The position numbers and the translations under genes were made by a program. The notes beneath the pieces were generated by a model. The model searched no databases and was not told the DNA's origin. It saw nothing but the letters and a program-made list of their open reading frames with translations. DNA of 64,000 nt from Persicaria tinctoria (lineage: Eukaryota > Streptophyta > Magnoliopsida > Caryophyllales > Polygonaceae), in assembly GCA_037127255.1 (NCBI GenBank), contig JBANSL010000004.1, positions 20,033,967 through 20,097,966 of the forward strand, read 5' to 3'. Of the stretch, positions 2,689-64,000 are shown piece after piece (position 1 is the first letter of the stretch; every line of letters starts with the position of its first letter).

Positions 2689-4166
2689 TGATGAGAGGGT
2701 TTCTCGACCAAATAAATTTATAGTCAAGACCCCGCTATAGTATAGGGAGTCAGGATCGTCCACAGGAGAGAGTCAGCGCTTCTTATTTAGTTGTTTTGTC
2801 GGGTTGAAACTAACAAAAGAGATGGAAGAGAGATGGGTGGTGATAAGAGCATAAAATCTGAATTTTAATTAATAAAAAGAAAAACTTCTAAGCCAAGGAT
2901 CACCACAACAACAAATACATGTGCAAATCAATGAATCATATAAAAGATCATGCTTCTATCATCAAACAATTGAGTTTCATCAATCAACAAGTAAATCAAT
3001 TCACTTTCGCATAAAAGACCTACTCGTTTCTACCTTCTCTTAATTAGGATCCTTTAACTTTCATTAGAAAACCCTAATTACTATCAAGTTAACAATTTCC
3101 TTTGTCAAGTTCAATTGCAACTATGAATTCCTTTAGACTTTCATCCAAGGGTAAGCACATAGGTAGAAGACAATAAAAACATCGCACAATCATAGATCCA
3201 TCAATTCAACACACATCTCTATTGTTGGGCTCACCCCAACCCTAGAAGAGAAAAGAACTACTCAAACATAGTAATGAAACACATGAATTTAAGTGAAGAA
3301 AACATAAACTGAAATTAAACTAAATAAAACCTGGAAATTCAGCGTCTCAATCGCAACAAACACATCCAAGCTTTCACCCAAACACTAAACAAAACCCTAA
3401 AAATCGTCTCTACTGCTGCTGCGCGCAGCCCTGTGTTGTCTGTCGTCCTCCCCCCAAAAATCAGTCCCTAATAGGCTTTATTTAAAGATAGAAATTCAGA
3501 CTTAATCTCCAAGGAAAGAGATTTAATCTTAGGAAAATAATAAAATCTAACTAAGGAAGGATAAAATATCTCAAGTCTATCTAAATAAAAGATCCTAAAA
3601 GAAATTTAGAAGAAAACCCTAATTAAAAAGCCCAATAAGTAATAAATTCAGCCCGCAGAAAATTCTCCTGGTGCGCAGGGTATCGGTGCCGAGGTCTGGG
3701 TGTCGGCGCCGAGGTATCTGTTCGAATGCAGTAGGTTCTGTTTTTCTCCAGCTTTTCGACTCTGACTTAAATCACACTTTTCCGAGTCCTCGTTAATCCG
3801 ATTGACGCATACAAATATGCGTTGGAAAACTCTTTTCAAGGACTACAAATCTCATGAAGGCTCCATAACTTGAATCAAAGTGATGGATGGCGAAAATAAG
3901 GTTTTTCTCCAGCTACACCACTTTTTGCTTTTGCTTGGCTTCTCCATTACCTTCATGATTTTTTCATTAAGCTCTAAAGTGCGTCGAAACTCTTCCAAAT
4001 CAGCTCCAAAACCTAAAAAAATCACACCAAAGCTTGTTTAGACTCCATATCTTGCAATATTAAGCATAACTACACATTTTCCTTACTTTCCCAACACAAA
4101 AGCTAATAAAATGACTTGAATGAAATGAAAACATGATGTAAAATAAGACTAAAAATGTGGACATCA
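2689..4166 (-). mobile_element. Solo LTR (family A), 1478 bp
   Basis: The block is bounded by TGATGAGAGG at 2689 and GTGGACATCA at 4166, giving the inverted ends TGATG/CATCA. It is flanked by the 5-bp direct repeat AAGTA (2684-2688 and 4167-4171). On the minus strand it shows a TATA-like CTTTAAATAAAG and an end with TATAGCGGGGTCTTGAC. No internal retrotransposon sequence and no second LTR in the same orientation are nearby, so it is a solo LTR. The DNA at 20.5-21.46 kb ends with the same terminal 50 bp in the opposite orientation. Confidence 0.8.
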
Positions 4167-4414
4167 AAGTACTACTAGGAAAGATTATATCTTAGCCATT
4201 TATGTTCCATATTAAACATTAATTCAATATTATAGAATAATATTTTAGGTTTTATCATGTAATAAGACAAGTTTGTGTATTCTTTTTTATATGTCAGCAC
4301 AATTATGTCATTGGTACTCATCAAATTTTAGATTTTATATGTCAGCACAATTCAATGAGTTCTCTCAAATAAAGATTCAGTCTTTTTATCACTTTGGTTC
4401 ATGAATTGTATCCT
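4167..4414. repeat. Spacer with copies of TGTCAGCACAATT
   Basis: No gene is visible. The 13-mer TGTCAGCACAATT occurs at 4292-4304 and 4340-4352, and also at 2651-2663 on the other side of the solo LTR. Once the LTR is removed, three copies lie within about 220 bp of ancestral DNA. Two of them continue with a similar CATYGGTACT. Confidence 0.5.
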
Positions 4415-6470
4415 TGTTGTTGCAGGAGGATGGTCAAGTATGAAATAAATATAAAATAAAGATCAGACTGACTTCCCTGTCTCAGCAAATGATTACAAGA
4501 CTTCCTCCCGTTGTAGTAAGAAAAAATCAGGATCGAATCAACGAGGAAGCACGTCAGCAGTTCTCAGGTAGCAACAGATCTCACAGGCAGTATAGCAGAA
4601 AGACAGAAACACAGAAGCAAGGAAAGAAACAGAAATAAAAGCAGAAAATAAAAGCAAAGAACAATGAACTAAACGAACACATAAAAGACAAAGCAAAGCA
4701 GAAACAAAAAGCAAAGGCAGAGGCCCGTCGATCTCGACAAGAGTCAACTCGAGATCGACCACAACAGTGAACAACAGAAACTCAGAAAGTGAAAATCAAC
4801 GAAAACAGAAGAAAACCAACTCGACCTAGACCAGCTCCTACTCGAGATCGACAAAGCAGAACTCGATCTCGACAAAGGTCTATTCTATGTCGACTGGAAA
4901 CAGAAACTTAAATTTGCAGAATCTCGAACAAAACTCAGAATTTCGACAGAAATAAATTCAATATATAAAAGACTTCCAAAGCCAGGGTTTCAACACCACA
5001 ACGATAACCATGCAAAGTAACACATAAAGGCATAAAAGATCATGCTTTCCATCAAATAACTTTCGTCATTAACAAAAAGGCATATAGAGGCTTTCGCATA
5101 AACCCTAATTGTTACTAACCCTTTTTCACATAATTAATCCAAGTTGCATTAAGATCACTTTCGCTTCAATAACAAAAACAAGGACCACCTTCAACTCTCG
5201 CAAAAGAATCATGCTCATAGGGATAGAAGATGAATTGCACAAAAGATCTGACCTTTATCGCATCGCCTCACATGCCCACCGTCGGGCTCACCCCAGCCCC
5301 AGAAGTGGGTGGACTACTCACGCCTCATCGCAATCGCAGACATTGAATGAAAAGAACTAACTTGCATAAAATAAACTCCAACTTACAATCTCTCTTTTTG
5401 TAACTAACTAATTGTCTCTGAAATTGAATTGTGTGTGAATTGGAATGAATGAAAAACCAGCCCCAAGGGCCTTATTTATAGGCCCAAGGGCCTTATTCAT
5501 GTCTTGATAGATCTTGTCTTCCATGGATCAAATTTGGATAGAATCTTCTCGGCCAAATCGACTTCCTTCACGCCCAAGCAACTCCAATTCGACTAGGACT
5601 GATCAACTCGACGCGTTTCTGGAAACTGGGCTACTCGACCTCGACAAGGGCTCGTCGACCTCGAGTAGGATTCCTCGTCGACTGGACTTCCCGGCTAGCT
5701 CTGCTCGATGTGGCTCGGTCTTGGCTCCTGGTGCTTGTCGACCTCGAGTACCTCTTGTCGATGTCGAGTAGGCTTGATCGGTCGACTAGGTCTCCTCGGG
5801 TAGGTGTACTCGACAAGCTCGGACTTGGGCTCTGCGCTTCGTCGATCTCGACTAAGGCTCGTCGAGATCGAGTAGGGTTGCTCGAGGATGGTTTCTCTGA
5901 TGGTGTCGACTAGAGCTCCTCGGCATGGACTCGTACTGGCGTGGTGGCGCTTGTCGATCTCGACAAGCCTTTGTCGAGATAGAGTAGAGGTGTGCTCGGC
6001 TTCTCGTCCTCGGCTTCTCGGTCAGCTTCTCTTCTCGACTCCGGGTGTGGTGCCTGGGCTTCGTCGATCTCGACCAAGGTCATGTCGAGACCGAGTTGGG
6101 TCCGGAAGTCAGGTTGGTCTGGCTCTTCGACAATGCTCTTTCGACCAAGGCTGCTCGGCTACGCTCGTCTAGATCGAGTAAGGTCTACTCGAGATCGAGT
6201 AGTCTGGTTCCTCGGCTCGATTTGACTGGTTCCGCTGCTTCTTTGACTTTGGACTTCTGTAGCCGATTCCCGAGCTTTTCTGACCTTCTGTAGAATTGTT
6301 GTAAAATGCCTCGAAATCTGCGATTTAAACAGAAACTGGTGTAGATTCCATAATTTGGCAAATAAACATGGACTACATAGATTCTGTACTATCTTAGCCC
6401 AAATGCATGAAATGTATGCAGAAATCGGTATAAAATTTACTGTAAAACATGGCAGATTCAGCTCATAACA
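4415..6470 (-). repeat. 3' LTR of the Athila-like element
   Basis: On the minus strand it starts TGTTATGAGCTGAATCTGCC (6470) and ends CCTGCAACAACA (4415). A TATA box CTATAAATAAG lies at 5471-5481 on the minus strand. It contains 13 exact [CG]TCGA-NN-TCGA[CG] sites: starts at 4727, 4748, 4841, 4862, 5634, 5654, 5737, 5757, 5841, 5861, 5953, 6063 and 6188. Several mutated copies sit at the expected paired positions. Relative to the other LTR, about 120 bp next to the TATA box is replaced by a second copy of CCCAAGGGCCTTATT. Confidence 0.9.
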
Positions 6471-6484
6471 AACACCCCATACTT
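6471..6484 (-). promoter_or_regulatory. Polypurine tract
   Basis: The minus-strand sequence AAGTATGGGGTGTT directly precedes the 3' LTR start. This is the usual place and composition for the plus-strand primer of a Ty3 element. Confidence 0.7.
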
Positions 6485-7930
6485 AAGCTTGCTTGTCCTC
6501 AAGCAATACTTTTAATTGTCATTCAGGGGAAGAATTCAAACTCTCAACATATCAGATTCATTCTTATATAACCCTGCAATCAATTACCATCCTTGAAAAG
6601 GTACTAGTGTCACAAATTCATGCATGTGCAAATATACAAAAGCAACATCTACTCACAAAAGGAGGGTTATGCAAAACATAATTCATGTGACCAAGCATTG
6701 TTAATCAAGAAGACTTTAATTTAAGCTCAATAGGGAGTAGATTGGTAAAAGGCAAAAGGTGGGCAATTTTTGGCAATGTGGTGCTTTTGATCCGGGGAAA
6801 TGGAGTACTTTCCAAACTTTCATACCACATTCTTTCTCATTAGATTCATCACCTTTCACAATGCTTTTATCAATAATATTGATTTTACCTCTCTAACCTC
6901 AGCACTGCCTTCTCGCGAGTCGCAAACATGGGTGTCATGAATGGCCCCGGATACTTAGTGCTTTGGACTCCTCACAATGTGTCCCATCTCTCCAAACTAT
7001 TATCTCAGAGAGCAGGGTCAATCTACCTTTATCTCCTGAGGTGATTGGATTTTCTTTCACTCATTAAATTTTCCATATATTTCAAACAATTTCCTTCCAA
7101 ACTCCAATTATGATAAACACAACAACCATATAACAATATCATTCTCAACATAATCCCCGGATAAGGTAAATAATGGAAATATTTAGATCATGTGGAGCAA
7201 TAATTGAAATAAGGCATATTATGGCTTTTGTGTAATGCATAAGCATAGGTAAGGCTAGGATTATAAACAATGAGCATTATATGGAAATATAAAGTCCTCT
7301 ATCCTCTTATCATGCAACATGTCAAAAGCAACTTCAAATTTTACCTCCTTTCATGGTTTTCATCAAAATATGCACTTCATTGTGACTTCCCTTAACTAGG
7401 CAATTTCATGCTATATCTCTAATGAATCCAATTTTGCATCGTCGAGTTCAATATTAAACTTCCATGACATTATTCAAAATTTTCAAATGGGGGTTATTTT
7501 TCTCAAAATTTGGAAAACATGCATATAAGCACATAAATCAATAATGCATTCCAAAATAGCCATGTAGCAATTCAAAGAAATAATGCACAAATAATGTCAA
7601 ATATGATCAAATATGCACAAAGTAAGCCCTTCCTCCACCCCATACTTAAACATTACAGTGTCCTCACTGTATAAAAACAAGGGTAAAGAAAGGAACTCAC
7701 AGGACAGATGTGCAGAGCCTCATATTTTCGAATAGAAGCACCTCCTGGCCCGAGTATTGCTTGGTTCTATCCATGGACCTGAAAAGTGTAGAAGACGTAT
7801 ACCCACAATAGCAAACTAAAAGTGTTCAAAACCAAAAAAAAAAAAACAAAAAGCAACAAAGTCTCAAAAGTCCTAAAAAGTCTATGTACATGCTCTAGAT
7901 TTTATAGTCGCTAGGCCGACTTTTCATTTA
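6485..7930 (-). other. Non-coding 3' interior of the retrotransposon
   Basis: About 1.45 kb between the polypurine tract and the last pol-like frame. No frame of note and no recognisable domain on either strand. Athila-like elements often carry a long non-coding or degenerate env-like stretch here. Confidence 0.6.
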
Positions 7931-7933
7931 TGC

Positions 7934-8263
7934 TCAAGGTGGCATTTGCAGGGCCCATGTGGCTTGGGCCTCAAATAGGACTCCATTCTTGTCCCTCAGC
8001 TGTAATCCTCCAGAATGGATCTTGTTCACCACGAAAGGCCCCATCCGTTTCTTGTTGAATTTGTTGGGAAACCAATGATCCTTTGATTTAGAGACATAGA
8101 GCTTGTCTCCAACTTCATATTCCTTAGGCTCATCATTGGAAATCCTACACAATCGCACATACCAAGGCAGACCTCTCCCATGTATAGATAAATCTTTAAT
8201 GGAAATAGGAGAAGAAAGATCCATACCTTGGCTTACCTTCGCAGAGACGGAATCGGGGACCAC
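7934..8263 (-). pseudogene. Pol remnant resembling an integrase C-terminal tail
   Basis: A 109-codon frame reads YEVGDKLYVSKSKDHWFPNK, then KRMGPFVVNKIHSGGLQL. The order GDK-YV ... FPNKF ... GPFVV.K.H..G resembles the SH3-like C-terminal domain of Ty3 integrases (GDxVxL ... FPGKL ... GPFxV). The catalytic DDE core, reverse transcriptase and RNase H are absent upstream. The frame lies next to the TCGA array, so a large pol deletion is likely. Alternatively it is an unrelated conserved C-terminal peptide of this family. Confidence 0.45.
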
Positions 8264-8264
8264 T

Positions 8265-8845
8265 GTGTTTGGTCGATCTCGACTAGGGCTAGTCGATCTC
8301 GACGAGTCTGCAGGTTCTGGTGGTGGTCTGCTCGCAGATGCAGAAGTCGACGAAGGACAGGTCTTGTCGACCTCGAGTAGGGCTCTGCTCCTGGTGGTTT
8401 GCTCATCGAGGAAGGCGGATCTGGTGGCGCCGGGTGGTGGTCGATCTCGACAAGGCTGGTCGAGATCGACGAGGCTGGTCCGTCTGGTGGAGTCAGTGTC
8501 GAGGAAGCAGGAGTCGAGTCAGCAGAGGGCTTGTCGATCTCGACAAGGGTGGTCGATGTCGACGAGGATCCTGGTTCTGGTGGTGGTGCGCTCAAGGAAG
8601 CCGAAGTCGATGAAGAAGACCACTTGTCGATCTCGACAAGGCTACTCGATGTCGAGTAGGCCTTTGCTCCTGGTGGCTGCAGCGTCGAGGAAGCAGGGTC
8701 TGGGCTCCCCGAGTGGTGGTCGACCTCGACGAGCCTACTCGAGATCGAGTAGGGTTCTGCTTCCGTCTGGCTGCTCGACGAGGCTGGTACTGGTGGAGAC
8801 TCCTTGGTCTGGTCGAGATCGACTAGGGTCCGGTCGATCTTGACC
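8265..8845 (-). repeat. Internal tandem array of TCGA palindromes encoding SSTSLVEID repeats
   Basis: About five to six units of roughly 95-100 bp hold 12 exact [CG]TCGA-NN-TCGA[CG] sites, mostly in pairs 19-20 bp apart (8272/8292, 8440/8459, 8533/8552, 8626/8645, 8719/8738). Four extended 18-bp palindromes are CTTGTCGATCTCGACAAG at 8530 and 8623, CTACTCGATGTCGAGTAG at 8642 and CTACTCGAGATCGAGTAG at 8735. On the minus strand a 219-codon frame (8233-8892) turns the units into repeats such as STSTTLVEIDKPSADSTPAS. Frames are open on both strands because TCGA palindromes read similarly both ways, so translation is unproven. It lies where pol should be. Confidence 0.75.
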
Positions 8846-8922
8846 CCATACTTAGCTCCTGTCAAGGTATCCGAAAAATAATTAATCCACAACGACTTAC
8901 CATGGTCCGTGTCGATTGGATT

Positions 8923-11416
8923 CTATGTGTTCTCCTTGAGGATTGCCATGATCTCCTCCACCTGGGCCTCCATGTCCCTCTTTTCCATCTCCTCAGGGGT
9001 CATATTTCTGACCTTGGGTTCCCCGCAGCCGATGTAGCCCGCTGAGATAGATTTGACCTCTTCCATTGGACCCGTATGCCTTTCAGTTTTATTAAAGGAA
9101 TACTCAATTACCTCATCGCTGATGTTGAAGGTGAGCACTCCTTTCCTTACGCTTATGTTGGCATCCACCGTCGCCAAGAATGGTCTTCCTAAGATAATTG
9201 GACAAGCAGGATCTTCTTGCATATCAACAACTAGAAAATCAGCAGGGACAAAGAATTTACCTACTTGTACTGGCACATTATCCACCATGCCTGTTTGGAT
9301 GACCACCGTGTTGTTGGTCATGTAAAGTCTAGCATCCACAGGCTCTAGGGCACCTATCTTAATCTTGGACCAAATCGTTAAAGGCATAATACTAACACTG
9401 GCTCCAAGATCACATAGGGCATTAATTTTGTATGGACCAAATCCAATAGTTATAGCAAACTTACCTGGATCCGGCCTCTTCTCCAATATGTCCAGATGGC
9501 TGCATTCCTCTGTGATTTCAGCCATCGATCGCTTTTTGCTCAGAATCTCCTTCAGAAACTTGACATAGGATGGCATTTCATTAAGAGCTTCTGTGAAGGG
9601 GATGGTGACGTTGAGCTTCTGAAGCATCTTGATGAAGCGCTGAAACGTTTTCTCTGCCGGGTCCTTTAGAGATTTTTTGGGGAAAGGCAGCTTCTTTTTC
9701 TGAGTCGGAGCCAGAACAGACGTCGGAGGTGCTGCAGGTTGCTCTATGTCGACCAGAGGCTCCTCGACATCGACTACAGTTTTGTCGACATCGACCAGGT
9801 TGGGCTTAGTCGAGTTGATGTGTGGTGCAGACGAGGATTTTTGTAGGTTCTCCTCGAGGTCGAGTAGGCCTTTGTCGAGATCGACTAGAGGTTTGTCGAC
9901 ATCAACTAGTTGTTCCTCGTTGTTCTGCTGCTTTTCGACCTCTGGCTCTTGCAACTGATGGGCGTTTCTGAGTTTTACAGCGGCGATGTGTCCAGTCTTT
10001 CCCTTTGGATTTGGTTCTGAAGATCCAGGGAGTGCACCTAACTGTCTGGGAATTCCTGCTGCCAGCTGACCAATCTGTGTATCAACTGATTTCCGCCAAA
10101 TATCAATTTCCCCAAGTCTAGAGTTGACACCTTGCATCTGAGTATAGACAGAGTTGAAAGATTGCCTAGTTTCTGAGTGGTTCCTCCGTATTTCCTCCAG
10201 GACTGTCTGTATATCATCCTTTTTCTGGTCCCTTTCCGGATGTCCTGGAGCTCTGTAGGGCGGGGGGTTCCTAGGGACACCCTGGTTCCATTGTGGTTGC
10301 TGAAACCTTTGGTCCCCCATGTAGCGATTGTGACCCCCTGCGTAAGCTGCATCCTCATGGTGCTCTGCCAGCTTGACTTGTTCTGTGTGTGGGCACTCAG
10401 GAGTGGTGTGCCTTTGCGATCCGCATTCAATGCAAGGCTGGTTGACAGAGAGATACTTTACTTGCTTGATGAGCTTCTTATTTTGGTCTCTGTAGTACTG
10501 CTCCCTAACGTCTGGATCAATCTCCTTAGGTGGCTCATAGAGGGGCATGGATGGTGCTGGCCTGGCGTATGGGTTCTCTTCATAAGTTGCAGTAGACCCA
10601 TACTTGTTGTCGTAGTTAGTGAGCTTCTCTAGCACACCCCATGCGTCACTTGGCGGCATTGTCAGATACTCATAGCGAGTATAATGGTTGATTCTGTCCT
10701 TTGTGACCTGATCAAGAGAGTTGAAGAAGATCTCCTGAATGACGTAGGGTGGCTGTCCATGAGTAGGGCAAGATCGCAGAAGTTCCTTGTAGCGCTGCCA
10801 TGCCTTTGCCAGCGGTTCCCCTTGCTTCTGTTTGAAGGCGGTGATTCTCTGGCGGAGATGTGCTGTTTTGGCGGGTGGGAAGAATTTGTTCAGGAACTCT
10901 TGCTCTACTTGGGCCCAGGTTGTGAGTGATCTTGCTTTCAGCCCTTCCAGCCATTTCAGTGCCGGCCCAGCGAAAAGATTTCATCTTGACATATTCCAGG
11001 GTTGTACCTTCAGCAAGAGTACGACACATGTCAGAAAAATTTGTAATATGTTCAAGAGGACACTCATTAAATCTACCATAGAAGGCATTATTTTTCAGCT
11101 CTATAAGAAATTGAGTGCGAATTTCAAAAGAGTTATCAGGGATAAGAATCGCCGATTCAGGCACGACGAGAGTTGGGTGCATGTAGTCCTCTGCCGTGGT
11201 TGGATATTGGGCAAGCTCAGCATGTGCTTGTTCCCTAGCTGCTTTCTCAGCGGCGATAGCAGCATCCTTAGTCGCCAATTCCCTTGTAAGCCTAGCGATC
11301 AGCTGTTTCTGTGTCTCCGCAGCTGCCATGGCTCTTTGTAGTTTAGCTCGGACGTGAAATAGGCGTTCCGGTTCGTCTAAGGCGTCAAACTCAGGTGTTT
11401 GACCAGAACGGCGCAT
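8923..11416 (-). pseudogene. gag-protease gene of the Athila-like element, one frameshift
   Basis: The N-terminal part starts MRRSGQTPEFDALDEPERLF (11,416) with a coiled-coil stretch, then the gag segment FEIRTQFLIELKNNAFYGRF. A frameshift near 10,985 moves the frame. The rest continues through the capsid region (TTWAQVEQEFLNKFFPP) to 8923. After it come a CX2CX4HX4C zinc knuckle (CIECGSQRHTTPEC), a linker with LVDVDKPLVDLDKGLLDLEE made by TCGA sites at 9763-9884, and an aspartic protease with ALCDLGASVSIMPL and PIILGRPFLATVDANI. The active site DLGA is the usual variant in Athila-like elements. Gag would form the particle and the protease would process it. Apart from the frameshift the frame is clean. 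Confidence 0.85.
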
Positions 11417-11479
11417 ACACCTGAAAAGTAACTCAAAGAAACAGTGAGAACTGACTACCTAAGGCGCGATTGATAGCTT

Positions 11480-11497
11480 CCTCGACAACGGCGCCAA
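11480..11497 (-). promoter_or_regulatory. Primer-binding site (tRNA-Asp type)
   Basis: The minus strand reads TTGGCGCCGTTGTCGAGG a few bases inside the 5' LTR. It resembles the TGGCGCCGTTGCCGGGG primer site of Athila/Tat elements, complementary to the 3' end of tRNA-Asp, with two differences. Confidence 0.75.
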
Positions 11498-11502
11498 TTT
11501 TT

Positions 11503-13676
11503 TGTTGCAGGAGGATGGTCAAGTATGAAATAAATATAAAATAAAGATCAGACTGACTTCCCTGTCTCAGCAAATGATTACAAGACTTCCTCCCGTTGTA
11601 GTAAGAGAAAATCAGGATCGAATCCACGAGGAAGCACGTCAGCAGTTCTCAGGTAGCAACAGATCTCACAGACAGTATAGTAGAAAGACAGAAACACAGA
11701 AGCAAGGAAAGAAACGGAAATAAAAGCAGAAAATAAAAGCAAAGAACAATGAACTAAACGAAGACAGAAAAGACGAAGCAAAGCAGAAACTAAAAGCAAA
11801 GGCAGAGGCTCGTCGATCTCGACAAGAGTCAACTCGAGATCGACCACAACAGTGAACAACAGAAACTCAGAAAGTGAAAATCGACGAAAACAGAAGAAAA
11901 CCAACTCGACCTAGACCAGCTCCTACTCGAGATCGACAAAGCAGAACTCGATCTCGACAAAGGTCTACTCTATGTCGACTGGAAACAGAAACTTAAATTT
12001 GCAGAATCTCGAACAAAACTCATAATTTCGACAGAAATAAATTCAATATATAAAAGACTTCCAAAGCCAGGGTTTCAACACCACAACGATAACCATGCAA
12101 AGTAACACATAAAGGCATAAAAGATCATGCTTTCCATCAAATAACTTTCGTCATTAACAAATAGGCATATAGAGGCTTTCGCATAAACCCTAATTGTTAC
12201 TAACCCTTTTTCACATAATTAATCCAAGTTGCATTAAGATCACTTTCGCTTCAATAACACAAACAAGGATCACCTTCAACTCTCGCAAAAGAATCATGCT
12301 CATAGGGATAGAAGATGAATTGCACAAAAGATCTGACCTTTATCGCATCGCCTCACATGGCCACCGTCGGGCTCACCCCAGCCCCAGAAGTGGGTGGACT
12401 ACTCACGCCTCATCGCAATCGCAGACATTGAATGAAAAGAACTAACTTGCATAAAATAAACTCCAACTTACAATCTCTCTTTTTGTAACTAACTAATTGT
12501 CTCTGAAATTGAATTGTGTGTGAATTGGAATGAATGAAAAACCAGCCCCAAGGGCCTTATTTATAGGCTTCTAGTCCTTGCTAACCAAGGATAGGATATC
12601 TATATCTATATCTAAAATTATATCTAAAAGGCTAAAAGATAAATAAAATGTTTTAAGGAAATAAATCAATAAGGAAAAGATAATTCTAAAGTGGGTAAGT
12701 CTTCATGTCTTGATAGATCTTGTCTTCCATGGATCAAATTTGGATAGAATCTTCTCGGCCAAATCGACTTCCTTCACGCCCAAGCAACTCCAATTCGACT
12801 AGGACTGATCAACTCGACGCATTTCTGGAAACTGGGCTACTCGACCTCGACAAGGGCTCGTCGACCTCGAGTAGGATTCCTCGTCGACTGGACTTCCCGG
12901 CTAGCTCTGCTCGATGTGGCTCGGTCTTGGCTCCTGGTGCTTGTCGACCTCGAGTACCTCTTGTCGATGTCGAGTAGGCTTGATCCGTCGACTAGGTCTC
13001 CTCGGGTAGGTGTACTCGACAAGCTCGGACTTGGGCTCTGGGCTTCGTCGATCTCGACTAAGGCTCGTCGAGATCGAGTAGGGTTGCTCGAGGATGGTTT
13101 CTTTGATGGTGTCGACTAGAGCTCCTCGGCATGGACTCGGACTGGCGTGGTGGCACTTGTCGATCTCGACAAGCCTTTGTTGAGATCGAGTAGAGGTGTG
13201 CTCGGCTTCTCGTCCTCGGCTTCTCGTTCAGTTTCTCTTCTCGACTCCGGGTGTGGTGCCTGGGCTTCGTCGATCTCGACCAAGGTCTTGTCGAGATCGA
13301 GTTGGGTCCGGAAGTCGGGTTGGTCTGGCTCTTCGACAATGCTCTGTCGACCAAGGCAGCTCGGCTACGCTCGTCTAGATCGAGTAAGGTCTACTCGAGA
13401 TCGAGTAGTCTGGTTCCTCGGCTCGATTTGACTGGTTCCGCTGCTTCTTTGACTTTGGACTTCTGTAGCCGATTCCCGAGCTTTTCTGACCTTCTGTAGA
13501 ATTGCTGTAAAATGCCTCGAAATCTGCGATTTAAACAGAAACTGGTGTAGATTCCATAATTTGGCAAATAAACATAGACTACATAGATTATGTACTATCT
13601 TAGCCCAAATGCATGAAATGTATGCAGAAATCGGTATAAAAGTTACTGTAAAACATGGCAGATTCAGCTTACAACA
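11503..13676 (-). repeat. 5' LTR of the Athila-like element
   Basis: It starts TGTTGTAAGCTGAATCTGCC on the minus strand at 13,676 and ends CCTGCAACA next to the primer site. It is collinear with the 3' LTR. It carries 14 exact TCGA palindromes in the same paired arrangement. The extended form CTTGTCGATCTCGACAAG is at 13,156 and CTACTCGAGATCGAGTAG at 13,391. It keeps a 0.1-kb segment (about 12,567-12,705) that the 3' LTR lost. Confidence 0.9.
12556..12566 (-). promoter_or_regulatory. TATA box of the 5' LTR
   Basis: CTATAAATAAG on the minus strand is also found in the 3' LTR (5471-5481), in the LTR fragment at 20.7 kb (CTATAAATAAG) and, cut by the window edge, at 63,996-64,000. Transcription would run leftwards into gag. 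Confidence 0.7.
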
Positions 13677-13734
13677 ATCCTCTATTCACTTTGGTTCATG
13701 CAAATTAACCTATCAAGGTAGAGTGGCACATGAA

Positions 13735-14228
13735 CTCTTACAACAGAATCGTGCAACTCTTACAACAGAGTCGTGCAACTCTTACAACAGAGTCGTGCAA
13801 CTCTTGCAACAGAGTCATGCAACTCTTGCAACAGAGTCGTGCAACTCTTGCAACAGAGTCGTGCAACTCTTACAAGAGAGTCATGCAACTCTTACAATAG
13901 AGTCGTGCAACTCTTAAAACAGAGTCGTGCAACTTTTACAAGAGAGTCGTGCAACTCTTAAAACAAGAGTCGTGCAACTCTTACAACAGAGTCGTGCAAC
14001 TCTTAAAACAGAGTCGTGCAACTCTAACAAGAGAATCATGCAACTCTTAAAACAAGAGTCGTGCAACTCTTACAACAGAGTCGTGAAACTCTTAAAACAG
14101 AGTCGTGCAACTCTTACAAGAGAGTCGTGCAACTCTTAAAACAAGAGTCGTCCAACTCTTACAACATAGTCGTGCAACTCTTAAAACAGGGTCGTCCAAC
14201 TCTTAAAACAGCGTCGTGCAACTCTAAA
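13735..14228. repeat. 22-bp minisatellite (GAGTCGTGCAACTC core)
   Basis: About 22 tandem units with consensus core GAGTCGTGCAACTC followed by TTACAACA, and one-base variants (TTGCAACA, TTAAAACA, TTACAAGA). Units with AACAAGAG are two bases longer. Each unit has the arms GAGT/ACTC. The array starts just after the Athila-like element and its flanking TSD. Confidence 0.9.
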
Positions 14229-14414
14229 ATGTCATAGTATTATTCATGAAATTTATAGTTTTATTCATACAAACTAAAATCTAATTTGATTCTTCTTAAA
14301 CTAAAAATCTAATTTGGGCACATTATAATATTATTCTTGCACTTTTTAATCTAATTTGGTTCTTAAACTCTATTTTACAGTTGCACAACCGTAGTTTAGA
14401 ATTGCACAACTGTA

Positions 14415-26317: not shown

Positions 26318-29300
26318 CTACCCGAAAGCATCCTGCCGGATGAGGTCAAGTAGACCTGAGTGATTGTATAAATTAGGTCCCCTGGTAGAGTAGCAAAGGT
26401 GTGCAACCTTATCCGCTACCCGGTTACCAATACGGGGAATATGAGAAATTCTTATATTCCTTACACCTCGGAGAATAGTCTGAATATCTGACATTACTAA
26501 TTCTATTTCCCAAGGACAGTTCGTGTGTGTTTCTAAGAAATCTGTAATTACTTTTGAATCCCCTTCAATGATTAGGTTATCGATGTTTAGTTCCTTTGCC
26601 TTTTTTACCCCAAGTCGTAGTGCCAATGCTTCTGCCATAATAGGAGAGTGTCCCCCAATCACCCCACCATCCATGCTGATTGGATTACCATTCCAATCCC
26701 GTATAATGTAGCCAATAGAGCTCTTTGAATCTGATATATATGATCCATCAAAGTTTAGTTTGTATTTGCCCATAGGCGGCCTTTTCCATCGGGCGGACTT
26801 TTTGGTATTTTTAGGGTGGACTTTTACCCTATTTTGGATTGTGGAATCCTCGTCGTCTTCAAGGTTCAGTTTGATGGTTGTTCTCCAATTATTGATGTTT
26901 TCCAAGACCATTTTTCTAATGCCCTCTATTGAAGGGATCTTGGCATTCCTGAAGATTACTTGATTCCTCACAAACCACAGTGTCCACCATCTAAATGCTA
27001 TATTCTGTTTTCTGTCCTTCGAAAGGGTGGTGCTCAGGAGCTGAAGAATTTGATCCATATCTCTGTTTTCTGATATAATTGTGCTGACTTTCTGGGATAT
27101 ATCTCTGGGAAATTGTTGTTGAAAGCTGTTGAAGGGGCATTCTATGAAGATATGAATATCATCTTCCGATGATTGGTTACACAAGATGCATGGAGTGGGA
27201 ACAGCAACCCCCTTCTGGGCTAATCGCGCAGCAGTGGGTAATCCTTTTTGTTTGATTCTCCACATAAAATTTTGGACTTTTGGGGGAGCGTCAATTTTCC
27301 AAATCCAGGTGAATTCATTAGATATTATGCGTGTGTTGGATGAAACTAGGTTATAGGCGGATGACGTTGTGAACCAACCTTTTTTGTCCGGCCACCAGTA
27401 TAGCCTATCAGCAAGGGGACTTATGGGTAGGGGGATTTTGATGATTTCTTTTGTTATAGCCTCAGGGAGAGTGGAGTCAAGTTTTTCTCTCCACCATTTT
27501 CCCCCCATTATATAATCGCTTACAGTTTCTTTTTGGTCTATATTGGGTTGGGGTTCTATTTTATCCAAAAGAGGCTATGTTGTTACCCAGTTGTCTTTCC
27601 AGAAATTGATAGATTTTCCGTCTCCTACTGACCAGATAAGTCCTGATTTAAATTTTGTAATCAAGGAGCTGAGTTTTGACCATTGCCACGAGGCATTCCC
27701 CCTCCTAGTGTAGTTGAGTATGTGTTTTTCTTTTAGGTATTTGTGTTGTATAATCTTAACCCAGTTATTCTCAGGTTCCGCTAAAATTTTCCATAACAGT
27801 TTTAGTTGGAGGGCTTCGTTCATGTTTCTTGCTTTCCGTATTCCAAGTCCGCCAGCTGCTTTTGATTTACATATTTTGTCCCAGCTTATCAGTGGACTGT
27901 GTTGCGCATCTTTGTTCCAGAAAAAAGTTCTGTTAATTTGGTCAAGTTGCTTGTGTATTGACGCAGGGAGCAAGAAGCTCTGCATAGCATATAGAGGTTT
28001 TGATGATAGATTAGATGCAATTAAAGTGGCTCTTCCCTGCTGAGATAGGGTGTTTGCCCGCCATTTACTGAGTTGTTCTCTTGATTTACATATAATCTCG
28101 CCAAAGGTTTCCTTCGTTACCCGCCCGTTTACGATTGGGCAACCCAAGTATTTCTCCAAACTTCGTTCTAAGGGTATATTAAGTACTCCTTCTAAGTCTC
28201 GTGCTCTTGTCCTCGGGATTCCTGGCGTGGTTTGGAAGGATGACTTGTGATAGTTTACTTTCTGTCCCGAGAATCTACAGTAGTCCTCGATTATTTCTTT
28301 TAATTTTGTACATGCAGAGATGCTTCCTTTTGAGAAAATGATAATGTCATCCGCAAAGGCCAAAAACGGGATGCTAGGGCCAGAATTCCCAAATTTAAAG
28401 CCAATACTATTATTTGGGCTCTCTGCGTCTATCGACAGTTTACGAGCCAACACTTCTGCACCAAGCAGAAAAAGGAAGGGAGAGAGAGGGTCTCCTTGAC
28501 GTAGTCCTCTAGTTGGTTTAAAGGGTTCCGTGGGTCCATTGTTAACTAATACAGAGAACGAAACCGTAGTTACACATTCCATAACTATGTCCACGAACCG
28601 TTGGTGGAAACCGAATCTTTGGAGCACCAACTTTGTAAATTGCCAATCTACTCTGTCGTACGCCTTTTCCATATCAAGTTTTATGGCAGTCCAACCTTTC
28701 AAGCCCTTTCTTGTGCGAAAGGAGTGGAATATTTCATGAGCTATAAGTATATTATCCTGAATTGCTCTGTCAGAAACAAATGCTCCTTGGAGAGGGTGTA
28801 TAAGTTTTCCAATTATCATTTTTAGTCGTTCAGTGATTATCTTGGAGATGATTTTATATAGAGTAGAGCAAAGACTAATCGGTCGATAATGTGTAGTCAT
28901 AGAGGGGTTATCATTTTTTGGTATGAGTGAGATAAATGTGTGGTTGATTTGCTTCAACAGATGACCAGAGTGGAAAAAAGCTTTAACTGCCTTAGTAATA
29001 TCAATTCCTACAATTTCCCAATACTTTTTGTAAAACTCTGCAGTCATACCATCAGGACCAGAAGATTTATTGCTTCCTAATGAGAAAACAACTTTTTTGA
29101 TTTCACTGTTTGTTGGCTGCTTGATTAGAAAACTATTTTCCTCATCGGTGATAACAGGGTTGATAACTGAAAGGTATTCATGAAGTTGTTGTATTGGGAA
29201 GATTTGCTCTCGTCTAAACCTTTTTTCAAAGTCTTTCTGTATTTCCGTTTTAATATTTTCATCCCCAACAATTTGGGTTCCTTCTGCAGAAGTAATTGTT

Positions 29301-30445
29301 CTAATGATTTTCCTATTTCTCCTTCCAGACGCTACTCTATGGAAATAGGCCGAATTAGTATCTGCTAGTTTCAAGTGTTTTGACTTTGCTCTTTGATTCC
29401 AAAAAGTTTTATGGAATCGGAGAAGATTTTCTCTCTTGGATAGGAGGTTTTGTTCTTTAGTGGATGCATTTGAGTTTTGGTTTAGGTTGTGGGTCGATTG
29501 TATATCCAATAGGGCTTCGTCCACTTCTTGGAATTGTCGAAAAATATTTCCAAATGTTTTCTTGTTCCAAGCTTTCGCCTTCTGTTTGAGGATTTTTGAT
29601 TTATATATGATTTGGAACATAGCAGAGCCAGAGCAAGTAGCTCTCCAAGATTGCTTGACGATATTGCGAAAGTCTTTCCTCTGAAGCCAGACGTTTTCAA
29701 ATTTAAACGGAGGGGGTTTGAAAGGGACGTTCTTTGAGAGAGTAATTGAAATGGGGCAATGATCCGAGTTTGAGAATGCACCATTTTTCGTTACCAACTC
29801 GGGGAACATGTCAATAATTTCATGATGAACTAACACCCTATCAAGTTTTTCCAAGATGTTATCTGGGCCACCCTGATTCTTTCTCCATGTAAAAGGGTTA
29901 CCGAACGAAGGAATCTCTACCAAGGACCACGCATCTTTAAACTCCATTATTCTCTGAAATCTACTCGGTCGAGTTTCTGCACCACCACACTTATCCGATG
30001 GTTGGCTTATTTCATTTAAGTCACCCATCACTAAGCAGGGGAGGTTACTTTGGGCAATTAGACTATATAAGTTTCTCCAAAAGTCCTCTTTTTCTGCAGG
30101 GTTGGGGGGTGCGTAAACAAAAAGCATAAGACATTCAAAACTCTCCTTTATATTTTCATATTTTACTCCTATGATTCTCGGGAGGTGAATAACCACCGAG
30201 ATTGTTTCATCTATGAACGAGTTTTCATTCCATAATAAAACAATACCCCCGGAACGACCAGAGGCCGGTGACCAACAAATATTTGTAAATCCTGCATTTT
30301 TCCATAGAGATTCTTTTGGTTCTGTTTCAGTCTTTGTTTCTGCCAGAATAAGCATTTGTATATGATCTAAAGTACGTCACCCCTTAATATTAGACCAGAA
30401 GATTGTTTTTCCAATTCCCCTGCAATTCCAATATCGTATAATCAT
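26318..30445 (-). pseudogene. LINE ORF2: endonuclease, reverse transcriptase, zf-RVT and RNase H
   Basis: The frame begins ATG at 30,445 (MIIRYWNCRGIGKT), has a TGA at codon 23, runs open for 926 codons to a TAG at 27,575-27,577, and continues in the same frame to 26,318. Domains in order: EEP endonuclease (LAETKT, MGDLNEIS, SDHCPI); reverse transcriptase (GLRQGDPLSPFLFLL, FADDIIIFSKGS); zf-RVT (CILCNQSSEDDIHIFIECPF); RNase H (NFDGSYISD, EALALRLG, EGDSKVI, GNRVADKVAHL). The catalytic FADD and the RNase H acidic residues are present. It would nick target DNA and copy its own mRNA. Only two in-frame stops separate it from an uninterrupted gene. Confidence 0.9.
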
Positions 30446-37202: not shown

Positions 37203-38420
37203 GGGTAAATTGCAACTAATATCCCAACCTTTAGGGATAGTTGCTTTCAATACCCTAACCTTGTAAAATTTTACAAAATATCCTAACCTATACTATTAGT
37301 TGCACTTAACACCCTAGATGAGATTCTTAAATTACAAAAATTACCCTTATCATACAAAAATTACAAAAATCACCCATATTTATAAAATGTTTTCAATAAA
37401 CTCCTAATAAATTTAAAATTTTGAAATTAAAAAAATCTCTTACAATTTAAGCTCACCCAACCCACCATCCAAAAATAATTATAACAAGTATATAAAATCT
37501 ACTCCTTTAAAAATATAATATAATTATTTTAGCATTTACTCATTTAATATCTTAATATAATTACTCAAAATAATTAATTATTTATCTTAAACATAATACT
37601 TTTAGAAAAATAAAATAATGTAGATTTTAATAAATAAATTCTATGAGATATGATAACCGTTTGTAATATATAAAGAGTTACATGATAAAGATATATTAAA
37701 AATAATATGGTAAAATTATTATTTTTTACCATATTATTTTTAGTATATATTTATTATATAATTATTTATTGCAAATGGTTATCATATCTTTTACCATTTA
37801 TTTTTTAAATCTACTTTATTTTATTTTTGTAAAACTATTATGTTAAACATTTCTTATAGAATCATTTTTTTAATACCATGGAATTTATGTGTGATACATT
37901 ATAAGATGTTATGTATTAGTTTTAGTATATATAACATAATATTAACCAAAAAGACAGTATATATTGTATCAAATAATATATATGGAATATATAGATGTAC
38001 AAATCGGCATGTATCGAGACAGACTTATATAAATTTAGATTTTAATTATAATGTTTGTTTTTTAGATAAATAATTAATTATTTTTTTTTATTATATTAAA
38101 ATTTTACATGAGTAGATGCTAAAGTAATTATATTATATTTTGAAGGAGTAGATTTTATATACCTGTTATAATTATTTTTGGATGGTGGGTTGGGTTGGCT
38201 TAAATTGTAAGAGATTTTTGTAATTTCAAATTTTAAAATTTATTAGGAGTTTATTGAAAACATTTTATGAATATGGGCGATTTTTGTAATTTTTGTATGA
38301 TGTGGGTAATTTTTTAAATTTAAGAATCTCATCCAGGGTGTTAAGTGCAACTAATAATATAAGTTAAGATATTTTGTGAAAATTTACCCTAAAGGTTGGG
38401 ATATTAGTTGCAATTTACCC
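37203..38420. mobile_element. MULE-type element with long inverted repeats, 1.2 kb
   Basis: Both ends read GGGTAAATTGCAACTAATAT inwards. The inverted repeats extend about 330-345 bp (37,203 to about 37,548 and about 38,093 to 38,420). The 9-bp duplication TTGAAAAAA flanks it at 37,194-37,202 and 38,421-38,429, as for Mutator-like elements. The middle contains a second AT-rich palindrome centred near 37,720. No transposase. Confidence 0.85.
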
Positions 38421-48638: not shown

Positions 48639-49802
48639 ATGGGGGCCTCCTGCAGCAAAGACCCAAGCTTGGATGTAGTTCCTGCGCCGCCGCGCGCCGC
48701 CGGCCTCACCACGTCTGTCTCCGCCAGCGATTTCAGCTCCTACCTCTCAGCGTGTGAGTCAGACGCGCAGCTCCGAGATTTCGACTCCGCCCTCCGCCAG
48801 CAGACCACGCACCTGGTCACAACTGTCGCCGATGCCCAACAGGTAGGCTCTCTGTCTCTTGAATCCCTCAGAGCTGTTACTGGATGCCTCGCTGATGTGA
48901 ACCACGAAGTGGTTAGATTCGTGTTGAACTCCAACAGAGATGCTTGGAAATCTCCAGAGCTGTTCGATTTGGTCCAGCAGTATTTCGATTACAGCGATCA
49001 GGTTTTGGCTTTCTTCAACTCCCTTAATGGTTGCCTGAGAGCCGCTCAGCACAGGGAGCTGCTCGTCAAGTTGGCATTAGGCCACTTTGAGGAGGAATCG
49101 AAGGGTGTTGGTGGGGCTGATGGTGGTAATAGCGTCAGGTTTGCGAAGACTTTGCGAGAACTGAGGAATCTAAAGGAGGAAGGAAATCCTTTTAGTGGGG
49201 AATTTTTCGCATCGCTTAAATCCCTCCAGATTCTGCAGCTGCAGATGCTTAATAAGCTTAAAGCTAAGCAGCAGAAGCTCAGTAATAAGATGAAATCAGT
49301 GAAGATTTATAAGAGGATTTCCCTTGTGATCTTTGCAGCATGTTTCGTAGGGGTGATCGTTTTCTCAGTGGTTGCTGCAGCTATTGCAGCCCCGCCTTTG
49401 GTGACCGCTCTTGCTGCTGCAATGTCTGCTCCAATGGGGGGTATGGGGAAATGGTTGAATTCCTTGTGGAAGAAGTATGAAAAGGATTTTAAGGCACAAT
49501 ATGAGGTGGTTGATACAATGCGCTTGACAAGTTTGCTGACATTGGCGGAGTTGGATGATATCGGCTTGTTAGCAAGGAAGTTGGAGATTCAGATTCAGGC
49601 ATTGCTTGTAAGTGCTGAATTCTCAATTAGGGATGATTCCACGCTGAAGGTGGTGATTGGCGATATGACGAACAAACTAGGTGGTCTTACAACGGCAATT
49701 GCTGAGCTAGAGGAACGTTCTACCTTGTATAGCCGCGATATAGGGCGGGGAAGGACAGTCATCTTGCAAGGGATAAGCAGGAGAGGCTCAAATAACATCT
49801 AA
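48639..49802 (+). CDS. UPF0496 (DUF677/At14a-like) membrane protein
   Basis: An uninterrupted 387-codon single-exon frame, the only intact-looking host gene here. The start MGASCSKDPSLD has Gly2 and Cys5, a likely N-myristoylation and palmitoylation signal. Then come helical segments typical of UPF0496 (SASDFSSYLSACESDAQLRD; SLNGCLRAAQHRELLVKLAL), a coiled coil (about 190-225), and one strong hydrophobic block at about 225-265 (ISLVIFAACFVGVIVFSVVA). The C-terminal half keeps family features (LTLAELDDIGLLARKLEIQI). At14a-like proteins sit at the plasma membrane and are linked to cytoskeleton or cell-wall contact; the exact role of this copy is unknown. The start is the first ATG after a CT-rich leader. 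Length fits the family. Confidence 0.9.
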   Translation: MGASCSKDPSLDVVPAPPRAAGLTTSVSASDFSSYLSACESDAQLRDFDSALRQQTTHLVTTVADAQQVGSLSLESLRAVTGCLADVNHEVVRFVLNSNRDAWKSPELFDLVQQYFDYSDQVLAFFNSLNGCLRAAQHRELLVKLALGHFEEESKGVGGADGGNSVRFAKTLRELRNLKEEGNPFSGEFFASLKSLQILQLQMLNKLKAKQQKLSNKMKSVKIYKRISLVIFAACFVGVIVFSVVAAAIAAPPLVTALAAAMSAPMGGMGKWLNSLWKKYEKDFKAQYEVVDTMRLTSLLTLAELDDIGLLARKLEIQIQALLVSAEFSIRDDSTLKVVIGDMTNKLGGLTTAIAELEERSTLYSRDIGRGRTVILQGISRRGSNNI

Positions 49803-58098: not shown

Positions 58099-59726
58099 TC
58101 AAAATGGTTTTATACATTTACAGGGAGTTGGGACCGAAACGCCTATCTGAGATAGTCGAGATATTGTTGGGAGCCCCTTTTGAGCTAACTTCCATAGAAA
58201 GTTTTTAATCTTTGGGGGGGTATTTAGTTTCCATATCCAAGAATTTGGGTCGTCTGTCACATTGTCAGAATTTGTAAGTGTTGTGAACCTACCCTCTCTA
58301 TCCAACCACCAGAAAAGTCTATCCGGGAATGGCGAGATAGAGAGAGGAACAACTGTTATTTCCTTTACGATTGTGTTATCGAATGCAAGTTTCAGTTTCT
58401 CAATCCACCATTTTCCATTCATTATATAGTCGCTGACCTTTTGGTTAATATTGATTCCTTTTAGTGGATTTTTCTTTCCTAAAAGAGGGGTTGTTGACAA
58501 CCAGTTGTCTTTTGAGAAGTTAATTGATCTCCCATCTCCTGCATACCATATTAGGCCTTTTTTGAATTTATCTATGAGCCGACATAGGTTTCTCCAATGC
58601 CAACATGTATTGCCCTTTATGTTATATTGTAGAAGCTCTGTGTTTTTCTGATATTTGTATCTTATTAGTTTTACCCAATAATTATTAGGTTCGGCAAAGA
58701 TTTTCCACAATAATTTCATTTGTAGAGCTTCATTCATATCCTTAGATTTTTTAAGCCCGATTCACTTTTTGGCTTGTAGATTCTATCCCAACTTGTAAGT
58801 GGTTTATGTTGGAGGTCTTTGTTCCAGAAAAACATTATGTTGATTTGGTCTAGTTTTTTGTGTATATTGGTCGATAACATAAAATTTGCATTGTGTAGAG
58901 AGGTTTTGACGAAAGATTTGAATTGATTAGGACGGCTCTGCCCTGTTGGAAGAGGGCATTAGCCCTCCATTTAGAAAGTTGATCTTTTGATCTGGGTGCA
59001 TACAAATCCTTCAAAGGTCTCTCGATTTACCTTTCCATTAATAACGGGGCACCCCAAATAGTTTTCTAGCGATCTTGTATGTGGAATTTATAGACTTCGC
59101 TCTAGTTCTTAAACTCTAGTTCTAGGTACACCACTAGTTGTTTGGGATGAGGATTTGTGAAAATTAACCTTTTGGCCCAAGAACTTGCAGTATTCATCAA
59201 TAATTTTCCTGATATTTTCACTAGTAGTTGATGTGGCTTTTGCAAAGATCATGATATCATCCGTGAAAGGAAGGAAAGGTACAATGAGACCGTCCCTACC
59301 TAATCTATAACCAACAGTTTCTGAACCCACTAAGACATCTGCTTGTAATTTTTTGGAAATAATTTCTGAACCAAAGATGAATAAAAATTGAGACAACGGA
59401 TCTCCTTGTCTGATTCCTCTAGTTGGTTTAAATAAGTCAGTAGGACCATTGTTTACCAAAATTGAAAATGAGACTGTTTCTACACATTCTTTTACCCATC
59501 CTATAAAAGTTGGGTTGAATCCAAATTTTACCCAGGATTTGAAAGGAGAAATCCTATTCAACTCGATCGTATGTTTTTTCGTGTCTTGTTTTATCCCCAT
59601 CCATCCTTCATTTCCTTTTCTATTTTTAAATGTGTGGAAGATCTCGTGTGCTATCAGTATATTGTCATGAATTGCTCGATCAGATACAAAAGCTCCTTGT
59701 AATGGATATATGTGCTTCCCAATCAC
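58099..59726 (-). pseudogene. LINE 2 reverse transcriptase and zf-RVT region
   Basis: 59,109-59,726 holds the palm: GAFVSDRAIHDNILIAHEIF, then GIRQGDPLSQFLFIFGSEI and FTDDIMIFAKATST. The catalytic box is FTDD rather than FADD. 58,099-58,737 holds MNEALQMKLLWKIFAEPNNY and the C-terminal WKLAQKGLPTISRL. The stretch 58,738-59,108 has shifts but still shows the thumb region. It is not functional. Confidence 0.85.
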
Positions 59727-62976: not shown

Positions 62977-64000
62977 TGTTGTGAGCTGAATCTGCCATGT
63001 TTTACAGTAACTTTTATATCGTTTTCTGCATACATTTCATACATTTGGGCTAAAAAAGTACATAATCTATGTAGTTTATGTTTATTTGCCAAATTATGGA
63101 ATCTACACCAGTTTCTGTTTAAATTCGCAGAATTTGAGGCAATTTACAGCAGTTCTAAGAAAGGTTGGAAAACCTCGGAAATCAGCTACAGAAGTCCAAG
63201 GTCAGGAAGCAGCGGAATCAGGACGAATCAAGCTGGAAACCAGAATTACTAGATATCGATGAAATGTAGTCGATATCGACAAATATGTCCGAGCAGTGCT
63301 GGTCGACTAAGAGCATGATCGAGGAGCTGAGAGCCAGAGCCAACCCGACTCCACAAGCCTGCTCGATATCGAGTAGTTTACTCGATATCGACAACACCAT
63401 GAAGCTATGCCCGGAGTCGAGGAAGCCACACCAAATCGAGAAGTCGAGGACTGGACATGCCGAGCACCTAGTTACTCGATATCAACAAACGTTGTTGATA
63501 TCGACAAGATCAGCACCACACTTCCGAGCATGTGTCGGGGAGCAGTTCCTCGACCAAGACCAGCAGCGCAGAAGTCGACACAAGTCTACTCGATATCGAC
63601 AAAAGTTATCGATATCGAGGACCCTAGATCACCTGACTGAGCTTGATCGAGCACCAGCAACCCGAGATACCCAGCCAGCCGAAGTCGACGCCAACTTTAC
63701 TCGATATCGAGTAGAATTAGTCGATATCGAGGAGCGCCTTCTGGAGCCGCGTTACGCGGTGAGCTGACCGACGCGGTTTGGCTTTTCTTGGGGCCGAAGA
63801 ATCCGAGTTTGCTGAGATCTATCCACATCTATCAAGGCATATCAAGATCTATCAACACAAGAAGAGATTTACCTATTTTAGATTTATTTCCTATTTGGAT
63901 TTAATTATTTATTCCATTTATTTATCGTAAAGCTTTAGATAATTAGATTTAGATATAGATAGACTTTCTTACCTAGAATAGCTAAGGAATGAAGACTATA
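62977..64000 (+). mobile_element. LTR of a diverged Athila-like subfamily, cut by the window end
   Basis: It starts TGTTGTGAGCTGAATCTGCC, like the LTR start of the 4.4-13.7 kb element, and stays alignable for about 260 bp (ATGTTTTACAGTAACTTTTA, then TTATGGAATCTACACCAGTT). It then holds six exact TCGA palindromes (63,269; 63,362; 63,381; 63,589; 63,700; 63,720), all with centre TA, plus several one-base variants at paired positions. TACTCGATATCGAGTA at 63,698-63,713 is a perfect 16-bp palindrome. The window ends in GACTATA, where the TATA box should start. Its partner LTR and interior lie outside. Confidence 0.85.

Follow-up and report, generated by a model that had tools for sequence, protein, structure and literature searches.

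What does a plant retrotransposon do with dozens of short palindromes, many of them set in pairs about two turns of the helix apart? This question is raised by a 64,000-nucleotide stretch of the Persicaria tinctoria genome (contig JBANSL010000004.1, positions 20,033,967 to 20,097,966; hereafter the window), in which a long terminal repeat (LTR) retrotransposon is studded with sites of the form TCGA-NN-TCGA. We assign the element to a non-autonomous, Athila-like Ty3/gypsy type that keeps gag, a putative protease and the C-terminus of integrase. Here, we relate the number, spacing, position and conservation of the sites to their possible function. In our best reading, to which we give a probability of roughly 60%, the palindromes are DNA docking arrays for a sequence-specific protein.

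Number, pairing and spacing of the sites

The window holds 50 exact copies of STCGANNTCGAS, 43 of them between 4727 and 13405, within the element. A first-pass annotation had divided these 43 by hand count among the left LTR (13), an internal array (12), the gag-protease region (4) and the right LTR (14), and our count agreed exactly. Its estimate that well under one site would be expected by chance was also borne out (dinucleotide shuffles: mean 0.06, maximum 1), and a chance origin of the sites is rejected. Two refinements are needed. Since 27 of the 43 are two LTR copies of one set, the number of distinct sites is closer to 29, and the 12-site array, correct as counted, lies in a stretch (8272-8850) that is largely minus-strand coding sequence with a 93-bp, 31-amino-acid repeat. 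The pairs that had been listed are found to within one base (the last lies at 9853/9874 and not 9873), and the one-base variants proposed at 5973, 6083, 6168 and 8834 are present, with cores at 5974, 6085, 6168 and 8834. Outside the element there are seven exact sites, six in a second, related LTR, on which the first-pass annotation is silent, and one solitary (21280).

The host genome (1.68 Gb, 221 contigs), searched with the reversed pattern as control, contains 546,363 sites versus 11,869 for that control. Core starts lie 19-21 bp apart at 222,217 places (control 72); the 30 spacings from 22 to 51 bp sum to 47,551 (control 1,400), whose listed part takes in spacing 22 as well as triplets in which a member was skipped, in a tally that covers 19-51 bp. 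Pairs exactly 19 bp apart with S (C or G) at the facing flanks number 46,570 (control 0). Spacing was also tallied in the loci that we fetched, namely L127, L129-L133 and L135-L164 together with the two window elements, all picked by their matches rather than at random. Here, 392 distinct successive gaps shorter than 160 bp divide into 206 of 18-22 bp, 185 of 54-140 bp, a single one of 23-53 bp and none below 18 bp. Twenty-nine of these loci (L129-L158 minus L134, which is the window's own copy) form one close subfamily; L121-L126 and L128 overlap L127 and are excluded. When IMG/VR was scanned for such pairs, at least 120 stretches were returned, and the 80 listed had one pair in 77 cases and two in 3, which we take for chance in GC-rich phage DNA.

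Could the pairing be the by-product of a satellite, an outcome that the first-pass annotation had named as fatal to its proposal? Recurrence of the 19-21-bp spacing genome-wide, in LTRs, gag and array and in divergent subfamilies, speaks against this, and a simple satellite is rejected in view of diverged linkers and the use of several reading frames. Neutral tandem duplication with homogenisation of one short repeat is a broader form of the idea and has a foothold in the array, which is a tandem 93-bp repeat with a site number that differs between copies. We nevertheless hold it to be highly improbable: LTR and gag sites lie outside that repeat, the LTR linkers diverge while the cores stay, flanks vary by site, three reading frames are involved and gaps of 23-53 bp are almost absent.

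Conservation in LTRs, coding frames and autonomous-type relatives

Comparison of diverged LTRs separates the cores from their surroundings. Between the window element and L160, whose LTRs are about 30% diverged, all 96 core bases agree, compared with 10 of 24 central bases and 253 of 437 in the neighbourhood (12 of the 14 sites align, and two fall in a gap). The corresponding values are 91/96, 19/24 and 309/479 for L162, and 62/64, 6/16 and 191/342 for the second window LTR. The aligner may favour repeated cores; site order was checked by eye.

The two central bases, by comparison, switch together between diverged LTRs and are specific to the subfamily. They are mainly TC/GA in the window element, with CC and some CA/TG; TA in 25 of 28 L160 sites and in each of the second window LTR's 7 exact cores; CA/TG in 19 of 31 L159 sites; and TC/GA in all 8 L162 sites. 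Across 409 distinct sites the centre is almost always TC/GA, CA/TG, CC/GG or TA, with AG, CG, AA, GC and AC totalling 19. The bases adjacent to the core combine rather freely, being mismatched across the dyad in 159 of the 409. Two discrete 18-bp site classes, as first described, are not supported, given this mixing of half-site flanks.

A concerted shift of the centre by subfamily is what co-evolution of site and binder would be expected to leave, and it lends some weight to a binder encoded by the element itself. Such a binder, either Gag or the C-terminal domain kept from integrase, could counter silencing or mark the element's own copies, in the manner of VANC proteins, which bind motifs of VANDAL transposons and counter silencing. 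Preservation of the integrase C-terminal domain in frames of up to 1196 amino acids, though reverse transcriptase (RT) and the integrase core are gone, points the same way. Pfam, however, recognises no domain in the array and integrase-tail piece of the related copy L159, and no extra DNA-binding open reading frame (ORF) was noticed, a systematic search for one not having been made; on balance an element-encoded binder seems unlikely.

Within coding sequence the sites can be weighed against the peptide. In the integrase-tail frames of 30 loci, the window's own copy included, sites fall in the three codon positions 117, 123 and 28 times, giving the readings S-x-S-T/S, [VL]-[DE]-x-D and S-R-D-R-P; all three occur together in 24 of the 30 loci. 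When sites were located by amino acids only, 84 instances were obtained, from the 19 loci with a frame reaching 300 amino acids. The third residue of S-x-S is written TCG in 82 of these 84, versus 67 of 507 serines elsewhere in the ORF and 268 of the array's 604 unmarked serines, and the first residue in 66 of 84. TC closes the codon at the V/L/I position in 83 of 84 instances and at the next V/I/L position in 80 of 84, though the residue varies. The coding-region sites are constrained as DNA, with the peptide varying, and protein-level selection for a peptide repeat is rejected on the codon data.

A similar layout is found, with another core, in autonomous-type elements. A search of the host genome with P0003, an Athila-like gag-pol protein, gave 66 matches with open frames of up to 2048 amino acids. 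The 3′ part of one autonomous-type element (L163) contains no TCGANNTCGA. Three TCGR-NN-YCGA pairs, at spacings of 20, 21 and 21 bp, precede the integrase domains in its pol frame, and its U3 (the LTR's upstream region) has one pair (20 bp) about 200 bp upstream of the TATA-like TTTAAAATAAAG. L165 and L166, short stretches of a second such element, carry the same pairs as L163, whereas L164, from a third element, shows no pair of this kind and two TCGGTACCGA at a distance of 94 bp. Exact TCGGCGCCGA pairs at 19-22 bp number 468 in the host genome (control 0), and two P0003-matched elements on contig C1 (near 19.45 and 45.03 Mb) have one TCGGCGCCGA pair inside and one on each side, the outer places being taken for LTRs. 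Confinement of the system to one family fails in part, in that autonomous-type elements of the same genome have a similar layout but use a different core, TCGGCGCCGA. L163, L165 and L166 are named here as variant-core autonomous-type elements, which does not imply a helper role for the window subfamily.

In L163 (positions 197-382), the palindrome pairs encode a spacer rich in Ser, Pro and Thr that precedes the integrase domains and may be ancestral to the non-autonomous array. Since this array, too, directly precedes what is left of integrase, we infer an origin from the pol spacer of an autonomous forebear.

Position around the TATA box and possible function

In six LTRs (window element, L159, L160, L162, L127 and the second window LTR), upstream sites occupy -839 to -243 and downstream sites +595 to +834 relative to the TATA box, with none in between. 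For the second window LTR the TATA box was read from the final CTATA and the downstream part lies beyond the window end; L127 was oriented by its TATA match. The observed/expected ratio of CpG is 1.14 in the U3 site block and 0.99 in the array, compared with 0.51 in the rest of gag-pro and 0.30 in internal non-coding sequence.

A CpG profile of this kind might be read as that of a target: the sites would then serve mainly for host recognition through small RNAs or CG methylation, at no benefit to the element. Strong RNA folding (below) would suit such a role, and in maize, palindrome clusters of Sirevirus elements are small-RNA hotspots (PMC5311732, PMC10760457). A pure liability should vanish, however, and these cores are kept across LTRs some 30% diverged and through codon choice, which leaves this explanation quite improbable.

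Alternatively, the pairs may act in RNA, folding as hairpins or annealing two genomic RNAs for dimerisation and packaging; U3, R/U5 and internal sites would all be expected in the genomic RNA. Sense-strand folding does exceed that of shuffled sequences (z = -4.59 for U3, -6.65 for the array and -8.39 for the second LTR), and, once the TA class is set aside, LTR-type pairs often have reverse-complementary centres (12 of 34, versus 5.0 when shuffled). Yet palindrome-rich sequence folds well regardless, the dyad mismatches noted above are frequent, and the central bases of array and gag loci lack covariation (33 of 140, versus 31.8). Decayed sites, too, show sense G>A in excess of C>T (23:6 in array loci, 5:3 elsewhere), opposite to what retention of G-U pairs predicts, though weakly, the first set being coding and the second small. 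Dimer-linkage hairpins, one of the roles offered at first pass, accordingly fit less well, and we rate an RNA function, too, as unlikely.

Among these readings, recognition of the DNA by a protein appears to fit the palindromes best, judged from sequence. On the docking-array reading, a dimeric protein would bind two YCGA half-sites two bases apart (TCGR-NN-YCGA), and two such dimers would sit side by side on one face of the helix, about two turns apart. The LTR array upstream of the TATA box, together with the second one downstream, would act in an enhancer-like manner. Additional arrays would lie in gag and in the in-frame polyprotein spacer, where the DNA would be kept whatever the peptide. 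The likeliest binder would be a transcriptional regulator of the host, exploited by the element for its own expression, and more sites might bring more transcript or resistance to silencing.

Several observations weigh against docking arrays. The copies are relatives by descent, so that neither counts nor events are independent. Sites within gag and array are not accounted for by a simple promoter role, and L162 is without a TATA-proximal pair, its nearest upstream site being at -406. Strict helical phasing would call for tighter spacing than 18-22 bp, and a 10.5-bp periodicity in the longer gaps is not convincing. A known plant factor matching this motif did not turn up. The match to L159 is reduced in the core itself (core 61/72, centre 7/20, neighbourhood 119/281), the core-adjacent bases of the two sides match somewhat more often than expected (250 of 409, versus 212), and the reverse-complementary centres of the LTR-type pairs would also be given by a pair-wide stem.

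If the palindromes are docking arrays, one genome supplies a graded series of paired sites, more than 200,000 of them natural, and with it an unusually rich handle on a protein that drives or restrains a very abundant family. It would also present a mobile element that keeps DNA motifs within protein-coding sequence in all three frames, and the concerted change of the centre makes co-evolution with the binder directly testable by in vitro binding. A more far-reaching proposal, which we consider doubtful, is that Athila-like elements carry a lineage-wide cis code of TCGR-NN-YCGA in two-turn pairs, read by one co-evolving protein whose centre preference has shifted (TC/GA, CA/TG, TA, CG). Hundreds of thousands of sites in one genome would then track an arms race, either regulatory or over escape from silencing, and non-autonomous elements would have gained on their autonomous helpers by multiplying the array where pol had been.

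Element architecture, neighbourhood and known systems

The features of the window are collected in Table 1. The element is bordered by a 5-bp target duplication, ATCCT (4410-4414 and 13677-13681, plus strand; by eye), and its LTRs end in TG..CA; both are common to LTR retrotransposons. The two LTRs differ at 45 of 2054 aligned positions, 7 of them in a doubtful stretch beside a gap. Coding order is gag, putative protease, 93-bp repeat array and integrase C-terminal domain, with frames broken; RT, RNase H and the integrase core are absent, and pol is incomplete. The downstream cluster also includes two sites with a single mismatch (11906 and 11969), spaced in 21-bp steps, and the gag C-terminal/protease region has two site runs (9743-9785 and 9854-9896), again in 21-bp steps, coding for LVDVDK-like repeats.

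Table 1 Annotated features, numbered from the first nucleotide of the window
Feature	Position	Strand	Remarks
LTR retrotransposon, non-autonomous, Athila-like	4415..13676	-	LTR pair; ends read by eye
5′ LTR	11500..13676	-	TATAAATA at 12565-12558
U3 site cluster, paired TCGANNTCGA sites	12840..13405	-	-839 to -285 from TATA box
Downstream site cluster	11812..11979	-	Exact pairs 11812/11833, 11926/11947; +608 to +743 from TATA box
Primer-binding site (PBS), TTGGCGCCGTTG...	~11480-11497	-	Just inside 5′ LTR
gag N-terminal part, frame broken in window copy	10712..11416	-	ORF
gag C-terminal part and putative aspartic protease	8923..10659	-	ORF; homologues
In-frame 93-bp repeat array, 12 exact sites	8233..8892	-	Within-pair reading: S-x-S-T/S at one site, [VL]-[DE]-x-D at the other
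Integrase C-terminal domain	7934..8263	-	43% identity over 54 aa to L163 integrase frame
Polypurine tract (PPT), GAGGACAAGC...ATGGGGTG (ATGGGG end)	~6471-6508	-	Just inside 3′ LTR
3′ LTR, 13 exact sites	4415..6470	-	
Autonomous-type LTR, limits approximate	2690..4165	-	Variant-core pair TCGGTGCCGA 3683, TCGGCGCCGA 3703; likeness to L163 3′ LTR start by eye
Second, related LTR, cut by window end	62977..64000	+	Pairs in colinear order; TCGATATCGA at each of 7 exact cores

Five window ORFs, including the gag and protease parts, gave no Pfam match at 1e-3. L159, by comparison, has a single open frame of 1091 amino acids from gag through the integrase tail, with the gag domain PF03732 at 61.2 bits and PF13650 at 22.2 bits, under its cut-off of 24.3; many gag-pro homologues carry PF13650. 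Relatives of gag and protease include P0003, with gypsy-type RT and RNase H domains, and the metagenome protein P0001, with 68% identity across 44% of the gag-pro query and the same order of protease, array and integrase tail. At the peptide level, P0001 is compatible with the sites. The gag-pro protein found no relative in a scan of IMG/VR. In the host genome, the integrase tail returned 11,181 first-look candidates; the 150 scored were all 97-100% identical, some of them lying in the long open frames mentioned above. PBS and PPT (TTGGCGCCGTTG after the 5′ LTR; GAGGACAAGCAAG..TAAGTATGGGGTG before the 3′ LTR) are nearly as in the autonomous-type L163. A PBS of the TTGGCGCC type corresponds to tRNA-Asp, and PBS and PPT, as probable marks of Athila, underlie the label Athila-like.

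Several further observations concern the surroundings. On contig C1 (1796000-1821500) the site pattern recurs about four times, every 6.67 kb, as though LTRs and internal regions of the CA/TG subfamily alternated there in tandem (LTR-internal-LTR-internal). A satellite with a 22-bp unit (AACTCTTACAACAGAGTCGTGC, about 22 tandem copies, 13733-14229) starts some 50 bp away from the element's insertion point, and further 21-bp tandem repeats lie at 14374, 14597, 15096 and 17179. Translations suggest, by eye, ORFs like those of long interspersed nuclear elements at 26318-30355 and 58099-59726 (endonuclease/RT and RNase H-like frames). An inverted repeat at 37263-38387, with 250-bp arms that are 92% complementary and 625 bp apart, is possibly a foldback or a miniature inverted-repeat element. 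An ORF at 48639-49802 is UPF0496-like (homologues carry PF05055), with a best match of 66%; since it reaches at most 45% with named plants, the host plant may be far from well-sampled genomes.

How do these arrays compare with what has been described? A search for the core strings gave no retrotransposon paper by title among the matches listed, and such site arrays were not found described in Athila in the literature searched. The window element appears to resemble Athila in its PBS of the TTGGCGCC type, the PPT context near an autonomous-type element, PF03732 in a related copy and its aspartic protease relatives, and differs in that the window copy is without RT, RNase H and integrase core. 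With TR-GAG non-autonomous LTR retrotransposons it shares LTRs and gag in the absence of RT and integrase core; unlike them, it keeps the integrase C-terminus, a putative protease and a palindrome array in frame with them. The VANDAL/VANC anti-silencing system offers short motifs repeated across a mobile element and shifting between relatives. VANDALs, however, are DNA transposons with an element-encoded binder, whereas ours is an LTR retrotransposon.

The closest precedent is found in Sirevirus elements. Their LTRs carry high-copy palindromic repeated motifs (RM boxes), nearly all with a CGG-CCG core, which form CpG islands a short way before the TATA box and recur near env (PMC2829016); the maize motif is given as CACCGGACNNNGTCCGGTG in a second report (PMC10760457). 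The first-pass annotation knew of no described plant retrotransposon system of this kind, but dense palindromic motifs upstream of a TATA box are on record (PMC2829016). The portions of the Sirevirus descriptions consulted make no mention of 19-21-bp pairing or three-frame coding, and two-turn pairing, placement in coding frames, a concerted centre and a Ty3/gypsy host were not met in the literature searched, which covers few subscription papers and some sources in part.

Sirevirus differs in several respects. It belongs to Ty1/copia and the window element is gypsy-type, its gag/pro relatives having gypsy RT and RNase H and its integrase tail matching L163; the core is TCGA-NN-TCGA, or TCGG-CG-CCGA in the autonomous-type variant, instead of CGG-CCG; and the extra sites lie in gag, array and pol rather than near env. 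In common are many short palindromes with a CG-containing core shortly upstream of the TATA box, a CpG-island-like character, extra internal copies and a core that varies by family. The LTR palindrome cluster, high-copy, CpG-rich and upstream of the TATA box, is a Sirevirus-like trait outside Sirevirus. Because Sirevirus LTRs carry high-copy palindromic motifs (PMC2829016), the palindrome array is a feature of known kind, with RM boxes as its precedent; as docking arrays, the sites would extend the idea of the Sirevirus repeated motif to Ty3/gypsy and add to it a sharp rule of spacing.

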